A stretch of 24,495 bases of DNA from a virus. The stretch covers positions 1 through 24,495 of IMG/VR virus record IMGVR_UViG_3300045996_003777. One strand, given 5' to 3'. Position numbers and translations under genes: made by a program. Under the pieces are notes generated by a model. It searched no databases, had not been told where the DNA came from, and was given only the letters and a program-made list of their open reading frames with translations. Of the stretch, positions 9,225 to 24,495 are shown piece after piece. Positions within the stretch are counted from its first letter, which is position 1, and every line of letters starts with the position of its first letter.

Positions 9225-10280
9225 CTAGGCGAGCACCTTCGCCGAGAAGATCAGCTCGGGGTTCGCGACGGTGGGCAACGAGATCGCGGTCGCCAGCACC
9301 GAGTAGCTGATCGGGTTTTCCGTCCTCATCGGAACCGCGACCAGTCCCGGCGCGGCGGCCGCGTCGAGGATGTTGAGCCGGACAAGCTCGTCGGCCTCCA
9401 ACGTCCGGCCGAATTGGGTGACGCCGACGGAGTCGGGCGGCGCGGTGCCCGGAGCGGGCAGCAGCAGCAGCCGGTCGGCGTCGATGACCCGCCGCATCGT
9501 CGCGGTGTGGTCGAGGATCTGCTCGTCGTGGGTGATGAACGCGGGCAGGTCGCGGGCGTCGAGGATCTGGTTGAGCTGCTCGACGGTGACCGCGTTCATC
9601 GCGTCCGGTGCGCCCGCGAGCTGGCGGACCTGCACCGAGCGGATCAGCCGCGCCCGGATCTGCCGGGAGCCGACCATCACCGCCGGCCGCGCGCCGCCCG
9701 ACGACTCCACGTAGGTGTCGACCCACGTTTCCAGGTCGTCGAGCATGTCGACGTCGTCGGCGGAGTCCCACAGCGTCGCTGCGGTGACGTAGTGCTCGGC
9801 GGGCAACCCGAAGTCGACCTCGAGGTACAGGCCGTTCTCGCGTTGCGCCTCCGTGCCGATCGTCACCCGTCCGTGGGTGAGCGCCTGCCCGCGGGCAAGC
9901 TCGATCCGGGCGGCGACCGCCCGCGCGGCGATCATCGTGTCGCCGTTGAAGGCGTCCGCGACGAAGTCGTTCGCGCCCTGCGCGCGGGCCTGGTTCAGCC
10001 GAAGCTGGTCCTCCTCCGTCAGCGGCACCTCCACCGAGATCGGGGGGAGCTGCCCGCGGACCTGCCGCGCGCCCGGCCTGGGACGAATAATGGCCGGCGT
10101 GTCGTACGCTCTGTAGGCACCGGCTCGACCCTGCGTACGCGACTGGCGCACGAAGGAATACTCGATGGCGTCCCGTTGGATGTTGGGCAGCCACCTGTTG
10201 AGGTTGAAAGCGGGCACGTCGATCATCCGTGCCGCCAGCGTCAGCTCGGCGGGGTCGACGAGATCGAGGATCATTGCCAT
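9225..10280 (-). CDS. Major capsid protein (gpE-like)
   Basis: A 351-residue protein from ATG 10280, with GGGAGG upstream. It shows DVPAFNLNRWLPNIQRDAIE near the N-terminus, then YDTPAIIRPRPGARQVRGQL (E-loop region). A central VPLTEEDQLRLNQARAQGAN leads into a long helix (about 110-145). The C-terminus has ARDLPAFITHDEQILDHTAT and SVGVTQFGRTLEADELVRLN before the P-domain strands. This matches the lambda gpE/PF03864-type HK97-fold capsid family. The upstream decoration and scaffold genes fit a lambda-like head-assembly module. It builds the icosahedral shell. Confidence 0.9.
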   Translation of the reverse strand: MAMILDLVDPAELTLAARMIDVPAFNLNRWLPNIQRDAIEYSFVRQSRTQGRAGAYRAYDTPAIIRPRPGARQVRGQLPPISVEVPLTEEDQLRLNQARAQGANDFVADAFNGDTMIAARAVAARIELARGQALTHGRVTIGTEAQRENGLYLEVDFGLPAEHYVTAATLWDSADDVDMLDDLETWVDTYVESSGGARPAVMVGSRQIRARLIRSVQVRQLAGAPDAMNAVTVEQLNQILDARDLPAFITHDEQILDHTATMRRVIDADRLLLLPAPGTAPPDSVGVTQFGRTLEADELVRLNILDAAAAPGLVAVPMRTENPISYSVLATAISLPTVANPELIFSAKVLA

Positions 10281-10295
10281 GAGTGCTCGTCCTCC

Positions 10296-10682
10296 CTACG
10301 AGTAGACGATGTGCGCGGCCAGGTCGGCGCGCGCCGCGGGATTGAAGCCGCTGTTGGCCGGCAAATTTCCGGCGAACAGCCGCCCGGTCCAGATGAGCGC
10401 CGCGCCGAAACGCGCGCCCGGACGGACCGTCCGGTCGTGGAGCAGGTGCCCGGCGGCGACCTCCCGGCCGTCGGCCGCCGCGTCGTCGTAGGGGCCGTAC
10501 AGGCCGGTCGCGGTGACGACCCCCAGCACGGTCCCGGACCGCACCAGCCCGTCGGTGAACGGCGGGTCGTCGAACAGGTCGCCGTCGAGGGTGATGCTGC
10601 GACCCGGATAGGTGCGCTTCCATTCGGCGATCCAGCTGAGATCGCCGTTGCCGAACTCCTCCGTTTGCATCTCGAGATCCAT
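10296..10682 (-). CDS. Head decoration protein (lambda gpD-like)
   Basis: A 128-residue protein from ATG 10682 with AAGGAGC seven nt upstream, ending 15 nt before the capsid start. Recognisable gpD-type features are RSGTVLGVVTATGLYGPYDD followed by an Ala/Asp-rich loop and HLLHDRTVRPGARFGAALIW near the C-terminus. Decoration proteins trimerise at capsid three-fold axes and stabilise the expanded shell against DNA pressure. Size and place immediately before the capsid gene are as in lambda-like heads. Confidence 0.82.
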   Translation of the reverse strand: MDLEMQTEEFGNGDLSWIAEWKRTYPGRSITLDGDLFDDPPFTDGLVRSGTVLGVVTATGLYGPYDDAAADGREVAAGHLLHDRTVRPGARFGAALIWTGRLFAGNLPANSGFNPAARADLAAHIVYS

Positions 10683-10757
10683 TGGTGCTCCTTGGGCACA
10701 GGTGGAAATAACGCGGGCCTTGCGCCCGAGGACCGCAGCCGGGTTGCCCGGCGCGGG

Positions 10758-11357
10758 CTACTTGTCGTCGTTGAAACGCACGCCCATCTTCCGGGCGCGT
10801 TCGCGGGCTCGGTCCTCGACGCTGCCGCTGCCGCCGCCGCCGCGCGGCCCCTGGTCGGGGTCGGGGGTGGCGGGGGGCCGCTGCCCGTTCGCCGCGAGGT
10901 ACGGCTCGCGTTCCAGCAGCGTGTCGAGCGCCTTGCCGATCTTCGCCTCGTCGGGGTGGCCCTCGTCGTCCACCAGCTCGTCGGGGTCCAGCAGCCGCCC
11001 GGCGACGCCGGGGTTGGCGAACCGGCCGGACGCGGCGACCGCGATCCGGTCCTGCAGCCGCAGCCGCATCAGCTCGCCGATCTTTTCGGCGGCCTTCTCG
11101 CGTTCGGCGCGGGCGGCGGCGTCGGCGGCCTCCTTGCGGGCCGCGTCGATCGCCTTCTCCTGCTCCGACTGCGACGCGGCGCGCAGCGCCGCCAGTTCCT
11201 CCTCGACGGCTTCGCGGGCCTCCTTCTCGGCTTTCGCGGCCCGTTCCGCGTCGCGGGCGCGGACCTTGAACGCGTCGAGGGCTTTCTCGCCGGCGGGGCC
11301 GAGGCCGTCCTCTGCGGGGGCGGTCGGCTCCGACGTTGTGGTGTCTCCATCAGGCAT
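10758..11357 (-). CDS. Capsid scaffolding protein
   Basis: A 199-residue highly charged protein from ATG 11357. Residues about 25-100 form a long Ala/Glu/Lys/Arg coiled coil (KVRARDAERAAKAEKEAREA and following). A less repetitive segment then carries RIAVAASGRFANPGVAGRLL and LDTLLEREPYLAANGQRPPA, and a Gly-rich linker and basic tail (RARERARKMGVRFNDDK) ends the protein. This is the classic GP20-like scaffold layout: coiled coil for self-assembly, basic C-terminus to bind capsid. It directly precedes decoration and capsid genes. A promoter-like sequence and hairpins lie upstream, so this gene probably begins a strongly expressed head transcript. Confidence 0.85.
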   Translation of the reverse strand: MPDGDTTTSEPTAPAEDGLGPAGEKALDAFKVRARDAERAAKAEKEAREAVEEELAALRAASQSEQEKAIDAARKEAADAAARAEREKAAEKIGELMRLRLQDRIAVAASGRFANPGVAGRLLDPDELVDDEGHPDEAKIGKALDTLLEREPYLAANGQRPPATPDPDQGPRGGGGSGSVEDRARERARKMGVRFNDDK

Positions 11358-11400
11358 TGCGCCTGGCCTTCCTGTGGGCTCCGACCTTGCGTCGAAGAAA

Positions 11401-11430
11401 ATTGTGTCCGAGTGTGGACAGATGGGACAA
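11401..11430 (-). promoter_or_regulatory. Putative promoter with internal dyad upstream of scaffold gene
   Basis: Read on the minus strand, TTGTCC (11430-11425) and CACAAT (11406-11401) are separated by 18 bp; each matches the sigma-70 hexamer at 4 of 6 positions. The spacer region contains TGTCC-N6-GGACA (11405-11420), a perfect 5-bp dyad that could be an operator. It lies 44 bp upstream of the scaffold start, in the largest non-coding gap of the head block. Confidence 0.4.
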
Positions 11431-11453
11431 GCTGGTCTAAAGTTCCCTCACGC

Positions 11454-11493
11454 GGCAGGGGGTGGGAGGAAGCGCGATACCTCGCTCCCTGCC
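11454..11493. repeat. Hairpin GGCAGGG...CCCTGCC
   Basis: GGCAGGG (11454-11460) pairs perfectly with CCCTGCC (11487-11493), and the interior GAGG/CCTC can pair as well. It lies between the MuF-gene inverted repeat and the scaffold promoter-like site, so the gap carries two consecutive stem-loops. Confidence 0.5.
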
Positions 11494-11502
11494 GTTGCCC
11501 TG

Positions 11503-11592
11503 GCGAACCGGGGGGGAAGGCCGCTCACTTTCGTTCGAGTTACCCGCTCCCGCGAGAGCCGGCCGACCGCCACAAAGGCCCCCCCGGTTCGC
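11503..11592. terminator. 14-bp perfect inverted repeat after MuF-like gene
   Basis: GCGAACCGGGGGGG (11503-11516) is repeated inverted at 11579-11592, and the stem continues outward through CCTGG/CCAGG after a three-base bulge. It begins about 10 bases after the MuF stop (11601, minus strand). The 62-nt interior can itself fold. No T-tract follows. It probably ends or slows transcription from the portal side, isolating the scaffold-capsid unit, or protects mRNA ends. Confidence 0.6.
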
Positions 11593-11600
11593 TTCCAGGG

Positions 11601-12431
11601 TCACGCGAGCGCCTGCAGCGGCGTCTCGGTGATCCAGTCCCGCGCCTGCGGGTGGGGCTGGGGGAGGATCAGCGCGGACAGCGCGACCTGCCCGGAGCGG
11701 ATCAGGTCCGCCTTGGCCTTGCCGCCCGTCCCGGCGAACAACGCGTCCTGCCGCGCCGGCGTCAGCGCCGCGAACATCTCCTCGCCGGTGGGGCGGGTGA
11801 CCCGGTCGGCCGCGCCGCGGATCACCGGCTCCGCGACGCAGCGGCACGCGGCGTGGACGTCGGGAACCTCCGAGGTCGCCCGGACCGCGCCGGTCGCGGC
11901 GGCCAGGCACGCCCCGCACGGCGACCCGGCGGTCACCCGCCGCCACCCGACGATCCGGCCGTCGGCGTCCATCAGGTCCCGCTGGGCGAAACGGGCGGCC
12001 TCCGCGACCTCGGTGCGGACCGCCCGGACCGCGCGGGTCGCGCCCCACCGGGCGGCTGCGGCCTCGTCCGCGCCCCGCTCTCGCGCGACCCGAACCGCGA
12101 CCGTGGCGCTGGACAGCACCCGCCGGACCGGCCGCCCGTCGGGGGTGACGCCGGCGTACCGGTCGGCGTCGACGGTGTAGGGCAGACGACGGCCGCCAAG
12201 CTCCGACGCGCGGTACGCCGCCAGGTAGTCGGCGGCCAGGCCGGCGGCGGCGCGCTGGCCGCCGCCCAACGCCGCAGCGGCGACCGCCAGCCACCGCGCG
12301 AAGCTCGCCGACAGGTTGCGGAAGTCCAGCACCCACGCGCCGACCACCATCGCGGCGGTCCGCTCCCGCAGATCCTCCAGCGACCGGCCGTACGCGTCGG
12401 TCAACGCCAGGCTTTCGGGGTTCGCGGGCAT
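11601..12431 (-). CDS. MuF-like head morphogenesis protein
   Basis: A 276-residue protein from ATG 12431, overlapping the portal stop by one base (TGATG). Helical N-terminal two thirds are followed by a Cys/His motif: SPCGAC (C172, C175), then DVHAACRC (H193, C196, C198). This C-x2-C ... H-x2-C-x-C arrangement is the zinc-binding signature of phage Mu gpF / SPP1 gp7 minor head proteins. These associate with the portal, enter the procapsid and affect DNA ejection. Gene order portal-MuF-scaffold is the standard one. The C-terminus carries no recognisable toxin domain; it is a short extension. Confidence 0.85.
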   Translation of the reverse strand: MPANPESLALTDAYGRSLEDLRERTAAMVVGAWVLDFRNLSASFARWLAVAAAALGGGQRAAAGLAADYLAAYRASELGGRRLPYTVDADRYAGVTPDGRPVRRVLSSATVAVRVARERGADEAAAARWGATRAVRAVRTEVAEAARFAQRDLMDADGRIVGWRRVTAGSPCGACLAAATGAVRATSEVPDVHAACRCVAEPVIRGAADRVTRPTGEEMFAALTPARQDALFAGTGGKAKADLIRSGQVALSALILPQPHPQARDWITETPLQALA

Positions 12432-13969
12432 CACGCCGCCTGGTCGCCGGACGGCAGCGCACCGGGCGCGGGGTCGAGCAGCGTCGCCATGCCCGGCAGC
12501 GCGTCGCGGTCCGCCGCGGCGAGCAGCGCCGCGTCCCGCAGCATCGACTCGTCGCGGAGCTGGCGGATCCGGCGGATCTCCTGGGGGGAGTAGCCGGCGC
12601 GTTCCCACAGAAACTCGGGGGGGATCCCCAGCGCCGCCTGTTTCATCAACGCGTCGATGTGCTCGGACTCGGTTCGCGACTCGGGGTCGCCCCAGATGAC
12701 CTCGCCGTCGCGGCGGGCCCCGCGGGCGTCGCCGGTCGCGAGGAACGCCACCCTGACGGTCTCCTCCAGCCCCTCCCCGAAATGCAAATGTTTCTCGCGG
12801 CTTTTGGCGACCAGCCCCGCCTCCGCGCTCTTCAGCGATTCGCCGCTCGGGAACTGCCCCGAGATTTGGCCGAAATAGTGCGGCGGGGTGCGGGAGATGC
12901 TCGCGACGTGCTGGATCTGCATCTCGATCAGCTGGACGTAGGCGTTCAGGTCCGAGCCGGGGAACTGCCCGAAGCGGGCGTTCTCGTTCTTCGTGTAGAG
13001 CAGCCGATCCGAGCCCAGCTCGAACGGCAGCCGCGCCGCGCCGGTCCGCGGGTCGCGCTCCGGGGAAAACCCGGTCACGTACCGCTGCGGCATCGCGGCG
13101 AACTCCGACGCGACGAGCGCGTCCATCAACGTCTTGTTGATCGAGTCCTGCAGCCCCATGATCTCGGCGAACTCCGTCTCCCCGTCGCCGAGGAACGTGT
13201 CCTCCCGCCACGCCGGCCGGCCGTCGTGCGGCGCGCGGTACGCCGGCGGCAGCAGCCGCGGCCGGTTCACCAGCGGAACGACGGGCACCTCGCCGATGGG
13301 GTTGGGCACGGGCCACGACTCGCCCTCCACCCGGCGGGGCACCCATTCCCCCCCCACGGGGGTCGGCAGCCACAGCGCGCTCTGGCCCGGCAGGAACGTG
13401 ACGCCGCGGCGGACGTAGCGGTGGACCGCGTCGGGCAGATACAGGGTGGCGTAGGAGATCCCGTCCGCGGTCCACGCCTTCAACGCGGCCAGCCGCCGCT
13501 CCCCGTCGGCGGGGTCGTGCGCGACGATGACCTCCTCGGGGTGCTCGGGCACGATCCGGGGCGTACCGTCGGGGCCCGGCCACACCGACAGGTAGGCCTG
13601 CCCCGCGATCAACGCCTCCTTCAACGCCAGCGGCGCGCGGGAGTCGAGATTGTTGACCTGCCACAGCGCCCACGCCTCGGCGTCGTCCTCCTGGTCGTCG
13701 CCGAAGCGGAAACCACGAATCTGCAGCCGCTCCAACACCACATCCACAACCAAACTGCACCAATTATCAGAAAAAGCACGAAACCTGCCGCCGAAGGCGT
13801 CCTGAAACCGGTCGGAAGCGAACAGCAAAGGGTGGCGGCCCCGGTAGTAGTCGTCGCAGCGGCGGATCCGCTCCCGGCGTCGGTTGAGCCGGTCGAACAG
13901 CAGTGCCACCCACTCAAGCGGCTCCACACGGCCCCCTTCACTTTTCCGATGAGCGTCCAAACCAGCCAT
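12431..13969 (-). CDS. Portal protein (SPP1 gp6-like)
   Basis: Up to 512 residues. ATG 13969 gives the longest form but has no SD-like sequence. GTG 13927 (starting VEPLEWVALLFDRLNRRRER) is preceded by GAAGGGGG and gives 498 residues; I think the shorter start is at least as likely. Family hallmarks are CDDYYRGRHPLLFASDRFQD, FRAFSDNWCSLVVDVVLERL, GLQDSINKTLMDALVASEFA and HVASISRTPPHYFGQISGQF. GESLKSAEAGLVAKSREKHL follows. These match the SPP1 gp6/PF05133-type portal, the dodecameric ring through which DNA enters and leaves. The gene begins the minus-strand structural block and faces a divergent plus-strand cassette. Confidence 0.93.
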   Translation of the reverse strand: MAGLDAHRKSEGGRVEPLEWVALLFDRLNRRRERIRRCDDYYRGRHPLLFASDRFQDAFGGRFRAFSDNWCSLVVDVVLERLQIRGFRFGDDQEDDAEAWALWQVNNLDSRAPLALKEALIAGQAYLSVWPGPDGTPRIVPEHPEEVIVAHDPADGERRLAALKAWTADGISYATLYLPDAVHRYVRRGVTFLPGQSALWLPTPVGGEWVPRRVEGESWPVPNPIGEVPVVPLVNRPRLLPPAYRAPHDGRPAWREDTFLGDGETEFAEIMGLQDSINKTLMDALVASEFAAMPQRYVTGFSPERDPRTGAARLPFELGSDRLLYTKNENARFGQFPGSDLNAYVQLIEMQIQHVASISRTPPHYFGQISGQFPSGESLKSAEAGLVAKSREKHLHFGEGLEETVRVAFLATGDARGARRDGEVIWGDPESRTESEHIDALMKQAALGIPPEFLWERAGYSPQEIRRIRQLRDESMLRDAALLAAADRDALPGMATLLDPAPGALPSGDQAA

Positions 13970-14013
13970 AGCGACACAGGCCGGACATGCGCTAGCTTGC
14001 CGGGACCATTACC

Positions 14014-14077
14014 TGACACATCGAACCGGAACACGCCGCTCTTAGGGCGACGTGACCTCTACGTGACACATCGAGCC
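14014..14077. promoter_or_regulatory. Pair of 14-bp direct repeats, operator-like
   Basis: TGACACATCGAACC (14014-14027) and TGACACATCGAGCC (14064-14077) match at 13 of 14 positions and are spaced exactly 50 bp start to start, near five helical turns. They lie in the divergent region between portal (minus) and the plus-strand cassette; the second ends 11 bp before the cassette's first start codon. A partial GACACA copy is at 13973. They are good candidates for binding sites of a regulator controlling the cassette. Confidence 0.5.
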
Positions 14078-14088
14078 AGGGGGCTACC

Positions 14089-15141
14089 GTGGGCCAGGAC
14101 GACCGCCGTACCTGGGGGGACGACGTGGACCGCCGAACACTGCTCCGTGCCGCACCCATGCTGCTCGCCGCCGCCGTCGCGCCCGACCGCGCGCTGCACG
14201 AGCTGCAGGTCATGCGCACCGCCACCGTGGACGCCGCCTGGCTCCGCGAGGCGGAACGCTGGACCGACCATCTGATCGCCGCCTACCGCCGGATACCACC
14301 CGGCGAGGTGCTGCCCCACGTCCGCGACCATCTCGACCGGCTCGACGCACGGCTGCCCGACCCGATGAGCGACGCCGCCCGCTCCCGGCTCGGCTCGCTC
14401 GTCGCGGACACCGCCGCGCTCGCCGGATGGTGCGCGATGGCCGACCGCCGGTGGGCCGAGGCCCGCGCCAAACTCGCGCTGGCCCGCGACGCCGCCCGCG
14501 ACGCCGGCGACGAGCTTCGCCACGCCCAGGCGCTGGTGCTGACCTCCGCGCTGCACTCCAACATCCCCCGCGGCGGCCACCGGCCGTCCGCCCCCGCGCT
14601 GCGTCTGCTCACCGAGGCCGCAGTGCGGCTGCGGACACTCGACGCGCCGCCGCTGACCCGCGCGTGGGCCGCCGCCCGCCTCGCGGAGGAACGCGCGGCC
14701 GCCACCGACGACACCGGCAGCGCCAAGGCCCTCGCGACCGCCGGGCGGGCCGTGGCCGAAGGCCCCGACCCCCGCGACAGCCGCGGATTCTTCTCGCTCG
14801 CCGGGTTTCTCGGCTACTGGCGCGACCCCAACGCGCTCCGCGGGTTCGAGGGGATCGCGCTGCGGCTGTGCGGCGACCCCCGCACCGCCGTCACCGTCCT
14901 CGCCGAGACGCTCCGCGACACCACCGACGTCGTGCAGGAGGCCGCGTTGCGCACCGAGATCGCGCTCGCGCTGGCCGCGTCGGGCGAACCCGACGGGGCG
15001 TGCGCCCACGCCACCGTCGCACTCGACATCGCGGACGGCGCGGGATTCGCGCTGCGCCGCGAACGGGTCCGCGGCCTCGCCGACCGGCTCCCGCCCGGAC
15101 CGCACGCCGCCGAGCTTCACGAACGGCTGGCCCTCGCGTGA
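14089..15141 (+). CDS. TPR-like protein related to actinobacterial XRE regulators, lacking the HTH
   Basis: A 350-residue protein from GTG 14089 with CAGGGGG upstream; an in-frame TGA at 14053 rules out an N-terminal extension. Residues 14-32 read DRRTLLRAAPMLLAAAVAP, the twin-arginine-like hydrophobic segment that typically lies between the HTH and the TPR-like region in large actinobacterial XRE-family regulators. The rest is an alpha-helical repeat array (DTAALAGWCAMADRRWAEAR, LARDAARDAGDELRHAQALV and similar units with W/A/G spacing), ending in a short helix. With no HTH it cannot bind DNA the usual way. It could be a ligand- or partner-sensing protein, or, if the RR segment is used, a Tat-exported or anchored protein. 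It is first in the cassette and overlaps the next gene (GTGA). Confidence 0.6.
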   Translation: MGQDDRRTWGDDVDRRTLLRAAPMLLAAAVAPDRALHELQVMRTATVDAAWLREAERWTDHLIAAYRRIPPGEVLPHVRDHLDRLDARLPDPMSDAARSRLGSLVADTAALAGWCAMADRRWAEARAKLALARDAARDAGDELRHAQALVLTSALHSNIPRGGHRPSAPALRLLTEAAVRLRTLDAPPLTRAWAAARLAEERAAATDDTGSAKALATAGRAVAEGPDPRDSRGFFSLAGFLGYWRDPNALRGFEGIALRLCGDPRTAVTVLAETLRDTTDVVQEAALRTEIALALAASGEPDGACAHATVALDIADGAGFALRRERVRGLADRLPPGPHAAELHERLALA

Positions 15142-15296
15142 GGACACCGCCGACCCGCGACCCCCGCGACTGCGCCCACGACCCCGGCTCCGCGGAGGCC
15201 ACCGAGCTGTTGGAGGACGGCTACGACGACGAAGAGGGAGATGAGGAACATCTGCACCTCGATCTGGACCCCGGAGAGCGCGAATGCCCCGCGTGA
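15138..15296 (+). CDS. Small acidic protein, unknown function
   Basis: A 52-residue reading frame starting at GTG 15138, which overlaps the TPR-protein stop (GTGA), and ending in TGA 15296. The middle is strongly acidic (ELLEDGYDDEEGDEEHLHLD), with two Cys and a few His that might bind metal. No separate SD site is evident, so translation is likely coupled. I do not recognise a family. Its tight packing between two better-supported genes argues that it is real. Confidence 0.5.
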   Translation: MRTPPTRDPRDCAHDPGSAEATELLEDGYDDEEGDEEHLHLDLDPGERECPA

Positions 15297-15601
15297 GCGC
15301 GACGATCCGCTACCGGTTGAGCGAACGGCTGCACCGGTGGGCCGCCCGGTCCTCGTGGGGCCACGGCCGGTCTACCTACAGATATCTGAGCGGCCTGGTG
15401 GTCGGCGTGCTCGGCGGCTACCTCCAGGCGTGGGGTTTCGTCGTCTGGATGGGGCTCGTGCCGCTCGGGATGTACCTGCTCGTGGTCGCGCTCCGCGGCG
15501 GTGACCGCCGTCGGCCACCGGCGACCTGCTCGCCCGCCTGCCTCGAGGGCCACACCTACGCCTGGCCGTGCGCCCAAACCCAGAAAGCAAGGAGGCCCTG
15601 A
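15284..15601 (+). CDS. Small two-pass membrane protein
   Basis: 105 residues from ATG 15284, with GGAGAG five nt upstream and inside the end of the previous gene. An alternative GTG at 15293 would give the GTGA overlap common here. A basic N-terminus (about 35 residues, many Arg) precedes two hydrophobic segments: LSGLVVGVLGGYLQAWGFVV and MGLVPLGMYLLVVAL. A basic, Cys-containing tail follows (CSPACLEGHTYAWPC). Size and two membrane segments are compatible with a holin or an exclusion protein, but no motif decides it and no endolysin gene adjoins. The stop overlaps the next start (TGATG). Confidence 0.55.
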   Translation: MPRVSATIRYRLSERLHRWAARSSWGHGRSTYRYLSGLVVGVLGGYLQAWGFVVWMGLVPLGMYLLVVALRGGDRRRPPATCSPACLEGHTYAWPCAQTQKARRP

Positions 15602-15783
15602 TGCCCGCCACCATCACACCGGCCCGCCGGGCGCTCGCGCTCGCCGCGCTCGTCCTGCCCTATCTCGCCGCTGCCGACGGGTGCTCCGTCAACGCCCCCG
15701 AAGCCGAGTGCATCAACCGCGAACACGCCGAGGGCGACAAGACCTGGCAGGAGGCCCGCGAAGCGTGCCCGATCCCCGAGTAA
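15601..15783 (+). CDS. Small secreted or membrane-anchored Cys-containing protein
   Basis: 60 residues from ATG 15601, with a strong AAGGAGG site seven nt upstream and a one-base overlap with the preceding stop. The N-terminus (PARRALALAALVLPYLAAAD) is a signal-peptide-like segment: two Arg, a hydrophobic core, then Ala residues. The mature part (GCSVNAPEAECINREHAEGD, then KTWQEAREACPIPE) has three Cys and may form a disulphide. The start site, rather than an upstream in-frame ATG at 15568, is chosen for the SD. Function unknown. Confidence 0.55.
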   Translation: MPATITPARRALALAALVLPYLAAADGCSVNAPEAECINREHAEGDKTWQEAREACPIPE

Positions 15784-15977
15784 CCGGGTCGGACCCCGAC
15801 CCCCTCCGTGTGCTCGGCCGGCTGATGCGCGTCGCCGGACCCGCGCTCGATGACCGGCGCTGGTGGTACATGGGCGGCACCCGCGAGCCCGCCCGCGCCT
15901 CGTTCATCGCCGAGCTGACCGACGGCCAGCGGGTGCTGCGCTACCGCATCTCCGTGGAATCGGTCGCCGGTGACTGA
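15765..15977 (+). CDS. Small protein of unknown function
   Basis: 70 residues from GTG 15765, overlapping the end of the previous gene by 19 nt, with GGAGG about 10 nt upstream. The sequence (RVLGRLMRVAGPALDDRRWW, YMGGTREPARASFIAELTDG, QRVLRYRISVESVAGD) looks like a small alpha/beta domain with amphipathic strands at the C-terminus. No family recognised. Reading-frame packing and third-position GC support it as coding. Confidence 0.5.
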   Translation: MPDPRVTGSDPDPLRVLGRLMRVAGPALDDRRWWYMGGTREPARASFIAELTDGQRVLRYRISVESVAGD

Positions 15978-15996
15978 CAGCCCGGCACCGTTGGGC

Positions 15997-16040
15997 CCGC
16001 CGGCCGGGGGGAAGGAGGAGCGGACCCCCCCGGCCGCCGG
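15997..16040 (+). repeat. Hairpin presenting an AAGGAGGAG loop
   Basis: CGGCCGGGGGG (16001-16011) pairs perfectly with 16026-16036, and three more pairs form beyond one mismatch. The 14-nt loop (16012-16025) contains AAGGAGGAG, a near-perfect Shine-Dalgarno. There is no U-tract, so it is not a standard terminator. The next ATG (16042) opens a 15-codon frame (MPTEDARTPVPDTQG) whose TGA (16087-16089) overlaps another ATG at 16086. Confidence 0.45.
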
Positions 16041-16142
16041 TATGCCAACCGAAGACGCCCGAACACCCGTTCCTGATACGCAAGGATGACCGATGCAGCG
16101 GCACATCGTGACCGGGTACCGCTGGATGGAGGGGTTCTGCCG

Positions 16143-16292
16143 ATGACACTGAACAAGCTGCTCGCCGCCGCGCTGGTGCTGTGCACGGCCTTCGCGTGGC
16201 GCTTGTGGCGGGCGTGGTCGGTATCCCACCGGGCCGTGCTCATGCAGCGCGACATCATCGCCAAGCAACGCTCAACCCCTAATGACGAATAG
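16143..16292 (+). CDS. Small single-pass membrane protein
   Basis: 49 residues from ATG 16143, with GGAGGGG eight nt upstream. An in-frame ATG at 16086 would add 19 residues but has no spaced SD; it overlaps the stop of a 15-codon frame and could be used by coupling. The N-terminal LNKLLAAALVLCTAFAWRLW is a membrane segment, followed by a basic, helical tail (HRAVLMQRDIIAKQRSTPND). Unknown function; the end overlaps the next gene by 11 nt. Confidence 0.5.
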   Translation: MTLNKLLAAALVLCTAFAWRLWRAWSVSHRAVLMQRDIIAKQRSTPNDE

Positions 16293-16971
16293 CTCACCCA
16301 GGCCGTTGTCTCCGGTGTTCCGCTGGCTGCTGCTGGTCGTGAACGTCGCGGCGATCGCGCTCAACGCCTCGTTTCTGTGGACCGAGGACAACCCCCGCTC
16401 GCGGCTGATCCTGGCCGCGCTGATCGCGGGGGTGGCCGCCAGCGCGGCGGTCTACCACGACCGCTGGGGGTGGCCCTGGCAGCGCGGCCGAGTCCGGGGG
16501 CCCTGGCCGCCCGCCCCGCCGTGGGCCGTGTTCGACCCCCCCGTCACCGAGGTGGAGGGGCGGGGCTACGTCACCGCCGACGACTTCGAGCAACTGAACC
16601 GGTTCGCCATGACGCTGATGCGGGCCGTCGTGGCGCACTCCGGGCCCCGGCCGCCGGACGGCAGACCGCCGACCATCGTCGGGGCGGCCCGGTGGGCCGG
16701 GAACTGCGACCATCCATTTGACGGCGGCGGGGCCACCGAGGGCCCGGTGGTCCGCTACTTCCGCCACCCCGACATCCCCGGCGATCAGCCCTGCGAGCAG
16801 TGCGGCCGTGTGATGCACGACCACGGCTGGATCGACGCCGGGGCGGAGGGCCTGACTGTCTGCCCCGGCGACTGGGTTCTCACCGACGTTGAGGGTCGCC
16901 ACTACCCGTGCAAGCCGGATGTCTTCGCGGCCACCTATCTGTTCGGAGCCCTGGCCGGGAGAGCAGCGTGA
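16282..16971 (+). CDS. Membrane protein with C-terminal phage PGDW...PCKPD domain
   Basis: 229 residues from ATG 16282. Two hydrophobic segments (FRWLLLVVNVAAIALNASFL and LILAALIAGVAASAAVY) are followed by a Pro/Trp-rich linker and a soluble region. A possible metal-binding part has CDHPF and PCEQCGRVMHDHGWID. The C-terminus, TVCPGDWVLTDVEGRHYPC then KPDVFAATY, matches the short phage module usually written GDWIvtg..GE.YPCKPDIFeaTYE, common in small accessory proteins of actinobacterial and Gram-positive phages. Joining that module to a membrane anchor is unusual. No function is established for the module. The stop overlaps a 15-codon coupling frame (GTGA at 16968). Confidence 0.6.
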   Translation: MTNSSPRPLSPVFRWLLLVVNVAAIALNASFLWTEDNPRSRLILAALIAGVAASAAVYHDRWGWPWQRGRVRGPWPPAPPWAVFDPPVTEVEGRGYVTADDFEQLNRFAMTLMRAVVAHSGPRPPDGRPPTIVGAARWAGNCDHPFDGGGATEGPVVRYFRHPDIPGDQPCEQCGRVMHDHGWIDAGAEGLTVCPGDWVLTDVEGRHYPCKPDVFAATYLFGALAGRAA

Positions 16972-17015
16972 GCAACGCTGCATCAGCGAGATTAGACCGC
17001 GGCCGGGAACAGTGA
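16968..17015 (+). other. 15-codon coupling mini-ORF
   Basis: GTG 16968 overlaps the stop of the preceding gene (GTGA), follows GGGAGAG, encodes MSNAASARLDRGREQ and ends in a TGA (17013-17015) that overlaps the GTG of the next gene (17012). Such back-to-back GTGA overlaps suggest that the tiny frame carries ribosomes from one gene to the next. Confidence 0.35.
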
Positions 17016-17119
17016 GCGGTCGCCGGTTCCTGGCGCTGCTGCTCGTTCTGGTGGCGTTGTGGGCCGCGGTGTTCCTGGTGGCGTGGCTGCTGAACCTGTG
17101 GATCGCCTCGACGTTGTAA
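17012..17119 (+). CDS. Tiny single-pass membrane protein
   Basis: 35 residues from GTG 17012: a short basic start (MSGRRF), then one long hydrophobic helix made of LALLLVLVALWAAVFLVAWL and LNLWIASTL. It has almost no soluble part. A longer in-frame extension back to 16889 overlaps the previous gene and has no RBS. The weak SD (GGGA) suggests translation by coupling to the preceding mini-ORF. Such proteins in phages can be holin-like, pinholin-like or modulators of host membrane enzymes, but nothing specific can be said. Confidence 0.45.
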   Translation: MSGRRFLALLLVLVALWAAVFLVAWLLNLWIASTL

Positions 17120-17181
17120 CCGGGCGGACATCTCCGGTTAAGAATGGCCTCTTCCATATTCCGCTTCGAGAGGACGTGCCC

Positions 17182-17433
17182 ATGCCCCGCCGTGACAACG
17201 ACCGACGCGACGACGACCGGGAGATCGTCAAGGCGATCCTTCAGACGCTCACCAGCGAAACCGGCCTGAACCTTGCGGACGGGCTGTTCGCCATCGCCGA
17301 GGGGCTGCGGGAGATCGCCGCCGCGCTGGCCGGCGCGGTCCCACCCGCCGAGTACGAGGCGCTGCCGGTGGAGGAGGGCCGCCCGATCGTCGCCGGCGAC
17401 CCCGCCGCGACGCAACCGCCGCCCGCCGGCTGA
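17182..17433 (+). CDS. Small helical protein, unknown function
   Basis: 83 residues from ATG 17182, with GAGAGGA nine nt upstream. A charged N-terminus (MPRRDNDRRDDDREIVKAIL) precedes a helical centre (NLADGLFAIAEGLREIAAAL) and a Pro/Ala-rich acidic tail. The centre could pack as a helical hairpin. The 62-nt gap before it is one of the two largest gaps in the cassette, is richer in A/T (TTAAGAATGG, CCATATTCC) and might hold an internal promoter, though no clear pair of hexamers is present. No family recognised. Confidence 0.55.
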   Translation: MPRRDNDRRDDDREIVKAILQTLTSETGLNLADGLFAIAEGLREIAAALAGAVPPAEYEALPVEEGRPIVAGDPAATQPPPAG

Positions 17434-17436
17434 GGG

Positions 17437-17556
17437 ATGCCCGGCAAGCAGGTCCGCAATTGGCGGGTGTACCACCGCCTCCGACAGCGGGGGCTGTCCA
17501 AGAGCAGCGCCGCGAAGATCGCCAACAGCGCCCGTCGGAGAAGGAGACGCAAGTGA
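17437..17556 (+). CDS. 39-residue basic protein (KS-rAA.I-type phage peptide)
   Basis: ATG 17437 to TGA 17556, three bases after the previous gene, with GAGGG immediately upstream. The product reads MPGKQVRNWRVYHRLRQRGL then SKSSAAKIANSARRRRRRK. The pattern 'Y..LR..G.SK..AA.IAN' is seen in small actinobacterial and phage proteins whose core usually reads like LYeaLR.kGmSKerAArIaNa. The seven-residue Arg/Lys tail would bind nucleic acid. The stop overlaps the next GTG (GTGA). Strong nearby coupling and the family-like pattern make it likely real. Confidence 0.6.
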   Translation: MPGKQVRNWRVYHRLRQRGLSKSSAAKIANSARRRRRRK

Positions 17557-17741
17557 CCGCCCAGGACGCCCGGACCGTCGCCCAGCTCGTGGCCGGAGCG
17601 GACGCCTGCTACGAGGAGGCGGTCGAACGGCTCGACCGTGGCGAGCCGCTGGAGGGGCCGGTGCAGGCGACCCTGCGGCGGCTGGCCCTGGAGACGGCGG
17701 CGCTGTCGGCGGTGCTCCGCGGGGAGTTGCAGCAGCGGTGA
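17553..17741 (+). CDS. Small helical protein, unknown function
   Basis: 62 residues from GTG 17553, with AAGGAG six nt upstream and GTGA overlaps at both ends. It is almost wholly helical (DARTVAQLVAGADACYEEAV, LETAALSAVLRGELQQR) with one Cys. A longer upstream reading frame to 17460 lies inside the preceding gene and is rejected. No family recognised. The two-helix amphipathic layout suggests a dimer or adaptor. Confidence 0.55.
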   Translation: MTAQDARTVAQLVAGADACYEEAVERLDRGEPLEGPVQATLRRLALETAALSAVLRGELQQR

Positions 17742-17932
17742 AACGGCTGTGCGGGAAGCGTTCCCGGTCGGGGCTCGTCTGCGACCGTAACGCCGACCAT
17801 CCGCTCGGCCCCGACGACGCGCACCACGCGGTCGGCGTCAACCGGTACTCGATGGTTGGCGAGCCGATCGACGTCTACTGGTGGGTCAGCCCCGACGACC
17901 CCGTCATCGAGGAGACGAATCCGCTTGACTGA
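17738..17932 (+). CDS. Small Cys/His protein, unknown function
   Basis: 64 residues from GTG 17738 (GTGA overlap). The N-terminus RLCGKRSRSGLVCDRNADHP has C-x8-C-x4-H spacing, suggesting a zinc knuckle or treble-clef-like fragment like those in many small actinobacterial proteins that begin 'CG........C....gH.GdH'. Next come AHHAVGVNRYSM and an aromatic/acidic end (DVYWWVSPDDPVIEETNPLD). It ends inside the next gene by 8 nt. Confidence 0.55.
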   Translation: MKRLCGKRSRSGLVCDRNADHPLGPDDAHHAVGVNRYSMVGEPIDVYWWVSPDDPVIEETNPLD

Positions 17933-22682: not shown

Positions 22683-22805
22683 AAGCGGCCCTGACCTGCG
22701 AGTATGCCACTCTGGCCGAACCCAGGTTCGATAACCTGTCCCCGCGGATGCGAGGCTACCCCGCGCTAGCGCCCCGAGGGAGCGTCTAGGGGGGTACCCC
22801 ACCCC

Positions 22806-22823
22806 TGCATAGGTGCTTATGCA
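22806..22823. repeat. TGCATA-ggtgct-TATGCA inverted repeat
   Basis: A perfect 6-bp inverted repeat with a 6-nt loop. Its core CATAGGTGCTTATGCA resembles CATAGGTACCTATGCA in the larger palindrome at 24281-24310 (14 of 16 positions), so related sequences lie toward both ends of the CTAG-rich region. Confidence 0.55.
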
Positions 22824-22920
22824 TACAGGCTGGTCGGGTAGGGGGGTAGCCGGGCCGGGCCGGGCCGGCCGCGCGGCTAGCGCGCTAGGCGCTAGGGGGC
22901 CGAGGCCTAGCGGGGGGCCG

Positions 22921-22965
<45 letters not shown>

Positions 22966-23043
22966 CTAGCCGGGGGGGGGGGCGGTACCGGGCCGGGCCG
23001 TACCTAGGCGCGCGGGGGGGGCGGCGCTACCTACCGCCTACCG

Positions 23044-23142
23044 AAAAAAAAGTGGCGTACCCTAAAGCCAGCGGGTATACTGACGATATACTAGGTATAG
23101 GGGCCCGCCGCTAGGGGGGGCCGCGGGGGCTAGGAGGCCAAA
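23044..23142 (+). promoter_or_regulatory. Control module A (A-tract, hairpin, 22-nt core, start box)
   Basis: Eight As (23044-23051), a weak hairpin TGGC/GCCA (23053-23056 with 23067-23070), and the 22-nt core beginning AGCGGGTATACT and ending GATATAC (23070-23091). The core contains a -10-like TATACT and the dyad GTATA...TATAC, and is followed by AGGTATAGGGG. The start box GCTAGGAGGCCAAA (23129-23142) then abuts the GTG of the next gene. No -35 TTGACA is present. Confidence 0.6.
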
Positions 23143-23397
23143 GTGCAAGACGCTACTACTACCCGGCTACGGACGGAACTCGCGGGCTACGAGCGCCTAG
23201 CGCTAGCCGCTACCGAGCGGCTACGGGCGGCCGAGGCGGCGTGGGCCGCCGCGCGGGCCGCGGCGGACGCGGCCGCGGCGGACGCGGCGACGGCGGCGGT
23301 AGGCGACGCCGAGGCGGAAATGGCGTACTACCTAGAGGAGGCGGACGGGGTCCGGGCCCGCCTAGGCGAGGCCCCGAAGCACGGGCTCTACTACTAG
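23143..23397 (+). CDS. Small Ala-rich helical protein, unknown function
   Basis: 84 residues from GTG 23143, five nt after a perfect GGAGG. The protein is one long Ala/Glu/Arg helix (LRTELAGYERLALAATERLR, AAEAAWAAARAAADAAAADA), then a short end with AEMAYYLEEADGVRARLGEA and a terminal YY. Six of eight Leu codons are CTA, a codon almost unused in the structural genes, and the stop is TAG, as in all three genes here. A coiled-coil or DNA-mimicking helix is possible. No family recognised. The SD and its own control module make expression likely. Confidence 0.6.
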   Translation: MQDATTTRLRTELAGYERLALAATERLRAAEAAWAAARAAADAAAADAATAAVGDAEAEMAYYLEEADGVRARLGEAPKHGLYY

Positions 23398-23429
23398 GGC
23401 GGGGGCCCCGCGCCTAGGGGGGCCGCGCG

Positions 23430-23519
23430 AAAAAAAGTGGCGCTACCCTAAAGGTAGCGGGTATACTGACGATATACACAGTAGGGCCCCCGCCTAGGGG
23501 GCCGGGCTAGGAGGCCAAA
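23430..23519 (+). promoter_or_regulatory. Control module B (A-tract, hairpin, 22-nt core, start box)
   Basis: Seven As (23430-23436); a 7-bp hairpin CGCTACC/GGTAGCG (23441-23447 with 23453-23459); the identical 22-nt core (23456-23477); a G-rich stretch; and the start box GCTAGGAGGCCAAA (23506-23519) abutting ATG 23520. On the minus strand the hairpin is followed by a T-tract, giving an intrinsic-terminator shape. Confidence 0.6.
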
Positions 23520-23672
23520 ATGAGCGGGCTGATCGCGATACTGATTTGGGCGCTACAGCTTTTGAACCCCCAGGCGGGTGACGAGCTACGTACGTACACG
23601 CCGGCGGGCTACCAGATCGAGGAGGACGGTAGCGGTAGCTTCCCGGCCTACCACGAGCTGGGCTACCGCTAG
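23520..23672 (+). CDS. 50-residue protein with short hydrophobic N-terminus
   Basis: ATG 23520 to TAG 23672, five nt after GGAGG of the start box. MSGLIAILIWALQLLNPQ is a short hydrophobic helix (membrane or amphipathic). The rest (AGDELRTYTPAGYQIEEDGS, GSFPAYHELGYR) is polar with four Tyr. The gene is below usual length cut-offs, but its control module is identical to those of its neighbours, which is good support. Function unknown; a small membrane-acting phage protein is the simplest guess. Confidence 0.55.
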   Translation: MSGLIAILIWALQLLNPQAGDELRTYTPAGYQIEEDGSGSFPAYHELGYR

Positions 23673-23690
23673 GGGGCGGGGGGCCGCGGG

Positions 23691-23789
23691 AAAAAAAAGA
23701 TTCGCTACCCCCTAAAGGTAGCGGGTATACTGACGATATACTAGGTATAGGGGCCGCCGCTAGGGGGGCCCGCGGGCTAGGAGGCCAAA
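23691..23789 (+). promoter_or_regulatory. Control module C (A-tract, hairpin, 22-nt core, start box)
   Basis: Eight As (23691-23698); a 7-bp hairpin CGCTACC/GGTAGCG (23703-23709 with 23717-23723, loop two bases longer than in module B); the 22-nt core (23720-23741), then AGGTATAGGGG as in module A; and the start box (23776-23789) abutting ATG 23790. TATACT at 23726-23731 could be the -10, which would put the A-tract near -47 to -40, the place of an UP element. Confidence 0.6.
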
Positions 23790-24059
23790 ATGAGCATCGA
23801 CTACACCACCCAGCGTACGTACGACGAGGCGATCCGAGCGGCCGAGGACGAGGGCCGCGGGCACGTACGCGGCTACTACGCGCGGCTAACCGAGGAGCGG
23901 GGCCTTAGCGCCGAACGCGCGTTCGTCGTAACTACCCAAAAGTTTGTACGTACGGACGACGCATGGTCGGGCCGCGGGAACGACCTACGCCGCGCCTACC
24001 ACGACGGGGCCGCGGCGGCGCTGGAGGGGCTGGCGGACGAGATCCTGGCGCGCGACTAG
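23790..24059 (+). CDS. Small charged helical protein, unknown function
   Basis: 89 residues from ATG 23790 with the GGAGG start box. The content is helical and charged (YTTQRTYDEAIRAAEDEGRG, YYARLTEERGLSAERAFVVT, TTQKFVRTDDAWSGRGNDLR), ending in a helix (AYHDGAAAALEGLADEILAR). Ordinary amino-acid variety and a clean reading frame between a control module and a strong terminator make it the best-supported gene of the right end. No family recognised. Confidence 0.65.
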   Translation: MSIDYTTQRTYDEAIRAAEDEGRGHVRGYYARLTEERGLSAERAFVVTTQKFVRTDDAWSGRGNDLRRAYHDGAAAALEGLADEILARD

Positions 24060-24096
24060 GCGCGCGGGGCCCCCCGCGGGGGGGGGCGGCGCTAGG

Positions 24097-24117
24097 GGGG
24101 GCTACGGCCCCCTTTTT
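24097..24117 (+). terminator. Intrinsic terminator with TACG tetraloop
   Basis: GGGGGC (24097-24102), TACG loop, GCCCCC (24107-24112), then TTTTT (24113-24117). The C(UACG)G loop belongs to the exceptionally stable UNCG class. It lies 38 nt after the stop of the 89-residue gene and closes the plus-strand unit. Confidence 0.85.
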
Positions 24118-24125
24118 CGCGTGGG

Positions 24126-24170
24126 GGGCGGCGCTACCGGGGGCGGCGCTACCGGGGGCGGCGCTACGGG
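24126..24170. repeat. Three 15-bp tandem repeats
   Basis: GGGCGGCGCTACCGG at 24126-24140 and 24141-24155, then GGGCGGCGCTACGGG at 24156-24170. They directly follow the terminator, and the period of 15 bp is about 1.5 helical turns. Confidence 0.85.
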
Positions 24171-24280
24171 GGCTACCGAGCCCCGAAGGGCCTGGGTGGT
24201 AGGGGGGTACGTACCGCCCCGCTACGTGGCGTAGGCGCGGCGCTACCGCGCGGCAGGGGGGGCGGGGGGGGGCCAGCAAG

Positions 24281-24310
24281 CCTACGCACATAGGTACCTA
24301 TGCACGTAGG
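24281..24310. repeat. 30-bp near-perfect palindrome
   Basis: CCTACG-CA-CATAGGTACCTATG-CA-CGTAGG: the central 14 bp are a perfect palindrome, and the outer CCTACG/CGTAGG arms match too; only the two CA dinucleotides break symmetry (26 of 30 positions). It looks like a binding site for a dimeric protein or a cruciform. Confidence 0.8.
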
Positions 24311-24397
24311 CCCCTACCCACCCCGCCGGCGCAGGCGGCCCGGCCCTCCCCCGCGCGGGGGGGGGGCGACGCAAGACTTTTTCTTGACCCTGACTCG

Positions 24398-24495
24398 AAA
24401 TAAAAAAATCCTTTAGCTATGAGAGTTCTGAGGCTATGAGAGCTAAAGGTAGCGGGTATACTGACGATATACACCGTAGTAGGGGGAAAAGCCCC
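24398..24495 (+). promoter_or_regulatory. Control module D (runs off the window edge)
   Basis: An A-rich tract (24398-24408), a 9-bp inverted repeat CCTTTAGCT/AGCTAAAGG with a long loop, and the 22-nt core (24451-24472). Two direct copies of GCTATGAGAG (24416-24425 and 24433-24442, 17 bp apart) lie inside the hairpin. A G-rich stretch follows to the edge; the expected start box and gene would lie just beyond. Confidence 0.6.

Follow-up and report, generated by a model that had tools for sequence, protein, structure and literature searches.

Arrays of one promoter-like element placed before small genes are already known in actinophages (phiC31, Microbacterium clusters EC, EG and EI, and cluster K). 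The early repeats of phiC31 are infection-dependent promoters. In Microbacterium phages of cluster EC (e.g. Quhwah), 12 copies of an 18-bp intergenic repeat, all in one orientation, lie upstream of the ribosome-binding site (RBS), 21-30 bp before the start codons; four of these repeats are found among tiny genes by the terminase, and the phage encodes a sigma factor (PMC7302621). The SAS/ESAS elements of cluster K mycobacteriophages comprise a conserved RBS-like block (GGGATAGGAGCCC), and about half of them have a second conserved element upstream (PMC3203893). For host promoters of the WhiG type, a published filter retains TAAA/GCCGATAA pairs that have at most 2 mismatches and lie no more than 200 bp from a start codon, and start-site mapping in Rubrobacter confirmed 12 of 20 filter hits (60%; PMC8325347).

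The repeated unit and its phage context

We analysed a complete virus record of the IMG/VR type (24,495 bp; hereafter the window), with a GC content of 72%. A sequence-only reading had described in it four identical copies of a 22-nt core (AGCGGGTATACTGACGATATAC) at positions 23070, 23456, 23720 and 24451, the first three upstream of tiny genes. The four copies were confirmed without any mismatch, all on the plus strand, and the 22-mer is absent from the rest of the 24.5 kb. All four are intergenic and share one orientation. Each of copies 1-3 is followed by a short ORF that has a perfect AGGAGG and a start codon 42-51 nt downstream of the end of the core. The features of the region are as follows.

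22703-24390, no strand: compositional island holding the array (1.7 kb)
23044-23052, plus strand: A-tract 5' of copy 1, at an UP-element-like position
23062-23099, plus strand: promoter-like unit, copy 1 (C-TAAA-GCCAGCGGGTATACT-GACGATAT-ACTAGGTAT)
23127-23142, plus strand: invariant RBS block GGGCTAGGAGGCCAAA of gene 1
23143-23397, plus strand: tiny gene 1, 84 aa, GTG start, no relative detected
23430-23436, plus strand: A-tract 5' of copy 2
23448-23484, plus strand: promoter-like unit, copy 2 (C-TAAA-GGTAGCGGGTATACT-GACGATAT-ACACAGTAG)
23504-23519, plus strand: invariant RBS block GGGCTAGGAGGCCAAA of gene 2
23520-23672, plus strand: tiny gene 2, 50 aa, hydrophobic N-terminus, no relative detected
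23691-23698, plus strand: A-tract 5' of copy 3
23712-23748, plus strand: promoter-like unit, copy 3
23774-23789, plus strand: invariant RBS block GGGCTAGGAGGCCAAA of gene 3
23790-24059, plus strand: tiny gene 3, 89 aa, no relative detected; structure model of low confidence (pLDDT 56)
24094-24118, plus strand: intrinsic terminator after gene 3, a strong G/C hairpin followed by TTTTT (missed by a simple scan)
24443-24479, plus strand: promoter-like unit, copy 4; the core ends 23 nt from the end of the record, its gene lying beyond

Conservation extends beyond the 22 nt, as CTAAAG upstream of the core is also invariant (4 of 4 copies). When copies 1-3 are aligned, the blocks CTAAAG-NN-AGCGGGTATACTGACGATATAC and GGGCTAGGAGGCCAAA are invariant and the leader between them differs by substitutions and indels. 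Copy 4, which stands in another upstream context, has about 37 nt in common with the rest (CTAAAGGTAGCGGGTATACTGACGATATACAC-GTAG); with its different upstream flank, this copy bounds the unit at C-TAAA...GTAG, i.e. about 37 nt. Among the 106 aligned columns, 74 are invariant; the variation between copies lies in the flanks and spares the 22-nt core and the 16-nt RBS block. An invariant run of such length has a probability of 0.004 by column shuffling, and both runs jointly 1e-5. This invariance between varying flanks indicates more than a recent duplication of whole modules. With 2 mismatches allowed, the 12-nt start of the core (AGCGGGTATACT) is expected 0.59 times per window under dinucleotide shuffling, and 4 occurrences were reached in no shuffle.

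Tiny genes 1-3 are dissimilar to each other by eye, and neither the genes nor the leaders matched any family, PADLOC or Rfam entry. The leaders of copies 1-3 are G/C-rich, and their hairpins are no more stable than those of shuffled sequences. The terminator-like hairpin after gene 3 delimits copies 1-3 as one block, copy 4 beginning the next. An inverted repeat (CCTTTAGCT...AGCTAAAGG, 24410-24450) overlaps the unit of copy 4.

No exact match to the 22-mer was found in the IMG/VR or GTDB collections, and the search with a degenerate form of the core returned nothing. The array has no DNA relatives in phages, and such a repeat is absent from 27 TerL relatives, from methylase relatives and from the whole contigs G007 and G008. 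The lone short plasmid match does not involve the core: its 52 nt (near 24005-24056) belong to the end of gene 3. The RBS block alone (GCTAGGAGGCCAAAATG) matches 16 IMG/VR stretches, each time in single copy and in unrelated context, probably by chance.

Mostly on the minus strand, the record carries structural genes of a contractile-tailed phage; its structural and other genes include TerL, an SPP1-type portal, a scaffold, major capsid protein E, a tail sheath, a tape measure, an NlpC/P60 tail protein and a ParB/methylase. Among sequenced phages, Streptomyces phage Chymera gives the top match to TerL (49%), the nearest relatives of the portal are in Thermobifida and Streptomyces phages, and those of the tail sheath in Gordonia and Arthrobacter phages. 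Together with the GC content, these relationships identify the record as an actinobacteriophage fragment. Contigs with a related TerL reach 74-76 kb, so most of the phage may be absent from the record. Positions 14089-15141 encode a TPR-like regulatory protein of the NsdA family (NCBIfam NF053720, 100 bits vs. a cut-off of 75). This gene was unmatched in the phage and plasmid collections, and the NsdA family is named after a regulator of Streptomyces differentiation.

The island that holds the array is marked by TpA, at 73/kb vs. 9.6/kb in the rest of the window (odds ratio 3.64 vs. 0.49), and by CTAG, which is 60-fold enriched (13.8/kb vs. 0.22/kb). TpG, CpA and TpC are depleted, and the TpA excess extends into the coding sequence of the tiny genes. 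The maximal TpA ratio among 4,555 segments of GC >0.55 from the fetched contigs was 1.87, none being comparable to the island. CpG deamination is an unlikely source of the excess, because TpG and CpA are depleted rather than enriched. The island may be an assembly chimera, although the composition changes (22703) 21 nt after a stop codon. In one phage contig of GC ~0.6 (IMGVR_UViG_3300010167_000048), TpA is generally raised (odds ratio up to 1.8).

Promoter-like features and alternative readings

All promoter readings taken together, the unit is likely to be a promoter cassette of some kind. The single best reading, with a probability of about one half, is that each accessory gene has its own cassette with a sigma-28-type promoter, and that a sigma factor of the phage or of the host reads it. 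The 22-mer would make up the larger part of a promoter cassette of about 37 bp, and such cassettes would recur in an actinobacteriophage, each before a different tiny accessory gene. The promoter would be of the sigma-28 (FliA/SigD/WhiG) type, with TAAA as -35, a 15-nt spacer and GACGATAT as -10. Transcripts would start about 6-8 nt downstream of the -10, within the invariant GTA, and each would comprise a G/C-rich leader of about 40-50 nt, a strong standardised RBS and one small gene. The reader would be an RNA polymerase with a sigma-28-like factor, supplied by the unseen part of the phage or by the host (WhiG/FliA).

TAAA is present in 4 of 4 copies. In each of them, TAAA-N15-GACGATAT differs from TAAA-N14-16-GCCGATAW at 1 position out of 12 when W is allowed at the last one, and these are the only sites of the window at 1 mismatch, the next best having at least 2. 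At this 15-nt distance, GACGATAT departs twice from the strict -10 GCCGATAA and once from GCCGATAW. The sites of the array pass the published WhiG filter. From 11 promoter models scored on the 48-nt block, sigma-28 was the best (shuffle P = 0.005), and sigma-B types gave P values of 0.1-0.37. After correction for the models tried, the sigma-28 match has P ~0.05, and the strict consensus GCCGATAA has P = 0.034 uncorrected; the match is thus suggestive, pointing to a sigma-28 promoter without proving it. The conserved unit would span about -36 to +1 under the sigma-28 reading; with TATACT as -10, its span would be -26 to +11, leaving the -35 zone outside. Also counting against sigma-28 are the invariance of the 12-nt stretch AGCGGGTATACT, a would-be spacer whose conservation a sigma factor alone does not need, and the origin of the comparison arrays described below, which come from low- or medium-GC phages. 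No sigma-28-type gene was seen in the record, which is a fragment.

The sequence-only reading had taken TATACT as a -10 box lacking a -35. The lack of a -35 stands for sigma-70, the scan having returned no sigma-70 promoter, but is doubtful for sigma-28, as TAAA is present at sigma-28 spacing; TATACT is probably part of the spacer and GACGATAT probably the -10. If the copies were host primary-sigma promoters, TATACT would be the -10, the -35 would be absent and the A-tract, at about -46 to -37, would replace it in the role of an UP element. This reading is unlikely, even though TATACT matches TATAAT at 5 of 6 positions and A-tracts of 7-9 nt occupy the UP position in copies 1-3. Copy 4 has no A-tract at this position, no TTGACA-like -35 for sigma-70/HrdB is found at 16-19 nt, and the hexamer is not preceded by the TGN of an extended -10. 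Scores for sigma-A (P = 0.65) and for the extended -10 (P = 0.38) are at shuffle level, and the conservation of CTAAAG 5' and of GACGATATAC 3' of TATACT is left without reason.

Somewhat less probable still is a phage-specific promoter unlike sigma-28, recognised over its full 30 nt by a divergent phage sigma factor or activator; such a system has been proposed for phiC31 and is known in phiEco32-type phages. The near-invariance of the whole block, spacer included, speaks for it, as do the precedents of phiC31, with about 10 intergenic GGGTTGCCGACTCCCTTAC-like elements before early genes and its own sigma factor gp12, and of Quhwah, with its 18-bp element before groups of small genes. However, it requires a new specificity where a known one fits, and the window holds no gene for such a factor. 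A promoter for a T7-type RNA polymerase was rejected, the T7 core being matched with 10-11 mismatches out of 20.

The core was also proposed to be an operator, and this is doubtful. A regulator bound to the dyad GTATA-N7-TATAC would switch the tiny genes, or would halt transcription like the "stoperators" of mycobacteriophage L5. The dyad is indeed present in all copies, but it is weak, since dyads with 5-bp arms occur in 7-15% of shuffles, and conservation extends well beyond it. In addition, the 22.7 kb that precede the array, among them the divergent region near 21.8 kb, hold no copy. The same region holds two further palindromes, GCATAGGTGCTTATGCA (22807-22823) and ACATAGGTACCTATGCA (24288-24304), which are in line with an operator. 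These are similar to each other, flank modules 1-3 and might themselves be regulator operators; with up to 5 mismatches allowed, the rest of the window holds no further copy.

A last reading, in which the repeats have little control function and mainly provide homology for shuffling gene cassettes or are left over from duplication, is very improbable: dissimilar genes do stand between near-identical flanks in a compositional island, but the promoter-like block and the RBS block are each invariant while the sequence that parts them diverges, and the distance to the start codon is steady.

Terminator-like hairpins with T-runs were also seen on the minus strand (23441-23459 and 23703-23723), overlapping the -35 end of copies 2 and 3. 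As a cause of the conserved unit, minus-strand terminators are ruled out because copy 1 has none.

Similar arrays in other phage contigs

For comparison, five IMG/VR contigs were chosen by one match to TAAAG-N14-GMCGATATAC. Further sites were found in them (9, 7, 4 and 3 at up to 2 mismatches, vs. 0 for a reversed-pattern control), and 14 control contigs held no such sites. Single matches are uninformative, as the -35/-10 pair with a free spacer matches 58 IMG/VR stretches once each. In IMGVR_UViG_3300014913_000007 (153 kb, 32% GC), seven near-perfect TAAAGT-N-GCCGATAY sites lie within 8 kb (9654-17808), most of them directly 5' of the ATG of a tiny ORF, and this contig also encodes a divergent sigma-like protein (L242:1273-2370). 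The 35.7-kb contig IMGVR_UViG_3300044855_000299 carries seven TAAAGATTGTTTGAAGTCTGNCGATAT-like repeats on one strand, with a spacer that is conserved as in our array.

These two contigs and 3300026116_000003 share with our array several TAAAG-N13-TGMCGATATAC sites per phage. The three contigs differ from it in their GC content (~0.32-0.52), in their other spacers and in being often nearly leaderless, and no kinship with the phage of the record was seen. Proteins with sigma-70 region 2 are encoded by 3 of the 5 comparison contigs vs. 4 of 20 control contigs, which is weak support; two of the four sigma-positive controls are 74-76-kb contigs whose TerL is 55-58% identical to that of the record. 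The earlier proposal, in which every tiny gene has a promoter of its own that a phage-encoded or unusual sigma factor may read, is the best fit and is strengthened by the sigma-28-type -35/-10 pair and by these arrays, whereas its operator part is weakly supported.

Comparison with known systems

If the sigma-28 reading is right, one more phage lineage would be known in which copies of a single promoter govern many tiny genes, with sigma-28 as a definite class of factor to test. It would also suggest a recurring, perhaps convergent, use of TAAA/GMCGATAT promoters in unrelated phages, and a shared promoter would help to locate accessory (e.g. anti-defence) genes of uncultured phages. Far more tentatively, a phage of a sporulating or differentiating actinomycete might use sigma-28/WhiG-type promoter-plus-RBS cassettes on orphan genes, switched by its own sigma-28-like factor or tied to a developmental sigma of the host, with the TpA-rich island as an accessory-gene compartment under its own sequence constraint. 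The NsdA-family regulator gene of the record may be set beside this possibility.

Like our array, phiC31 has many same-strand copies of one promoter-like element before small early genes (read in NC_001978). Its GGGTTGCCGACTCCCTTAC-like element is unrelated in sequence, and NC_001978 showed no TAAA/GCCGATAW site at up to 1 mismatch. The cluster EC repeat (TAGaCTATaGGTgTaAgC) is unrelated in sequence too. In cluster K, the RBS-like block GGGATAGGAGCCC is similar by eye to GGGCTAGGAGGCC of our three copies, but two 17-bp inverted repeats form the upstream element there, and not the sequence of our array; cluster K genomes have 11-19 copies each. Stoperator sites are spread through the genome and bound by a repressor; within the record, which is a fragment, the sites of our array occur only there. 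The sigma-28/WhiG promoters of Streptomyces and Rubrobacter have, like our units, TAAA with a GCCGATAA-type partner before a start codon (PMC8325347); they serve developmental and pilus genes of the host, whereas identical copies with GACGATAT stand here before orphan genes of a phage. The layout of our array is thus that of known actinophage arrays, and its sequence is new.
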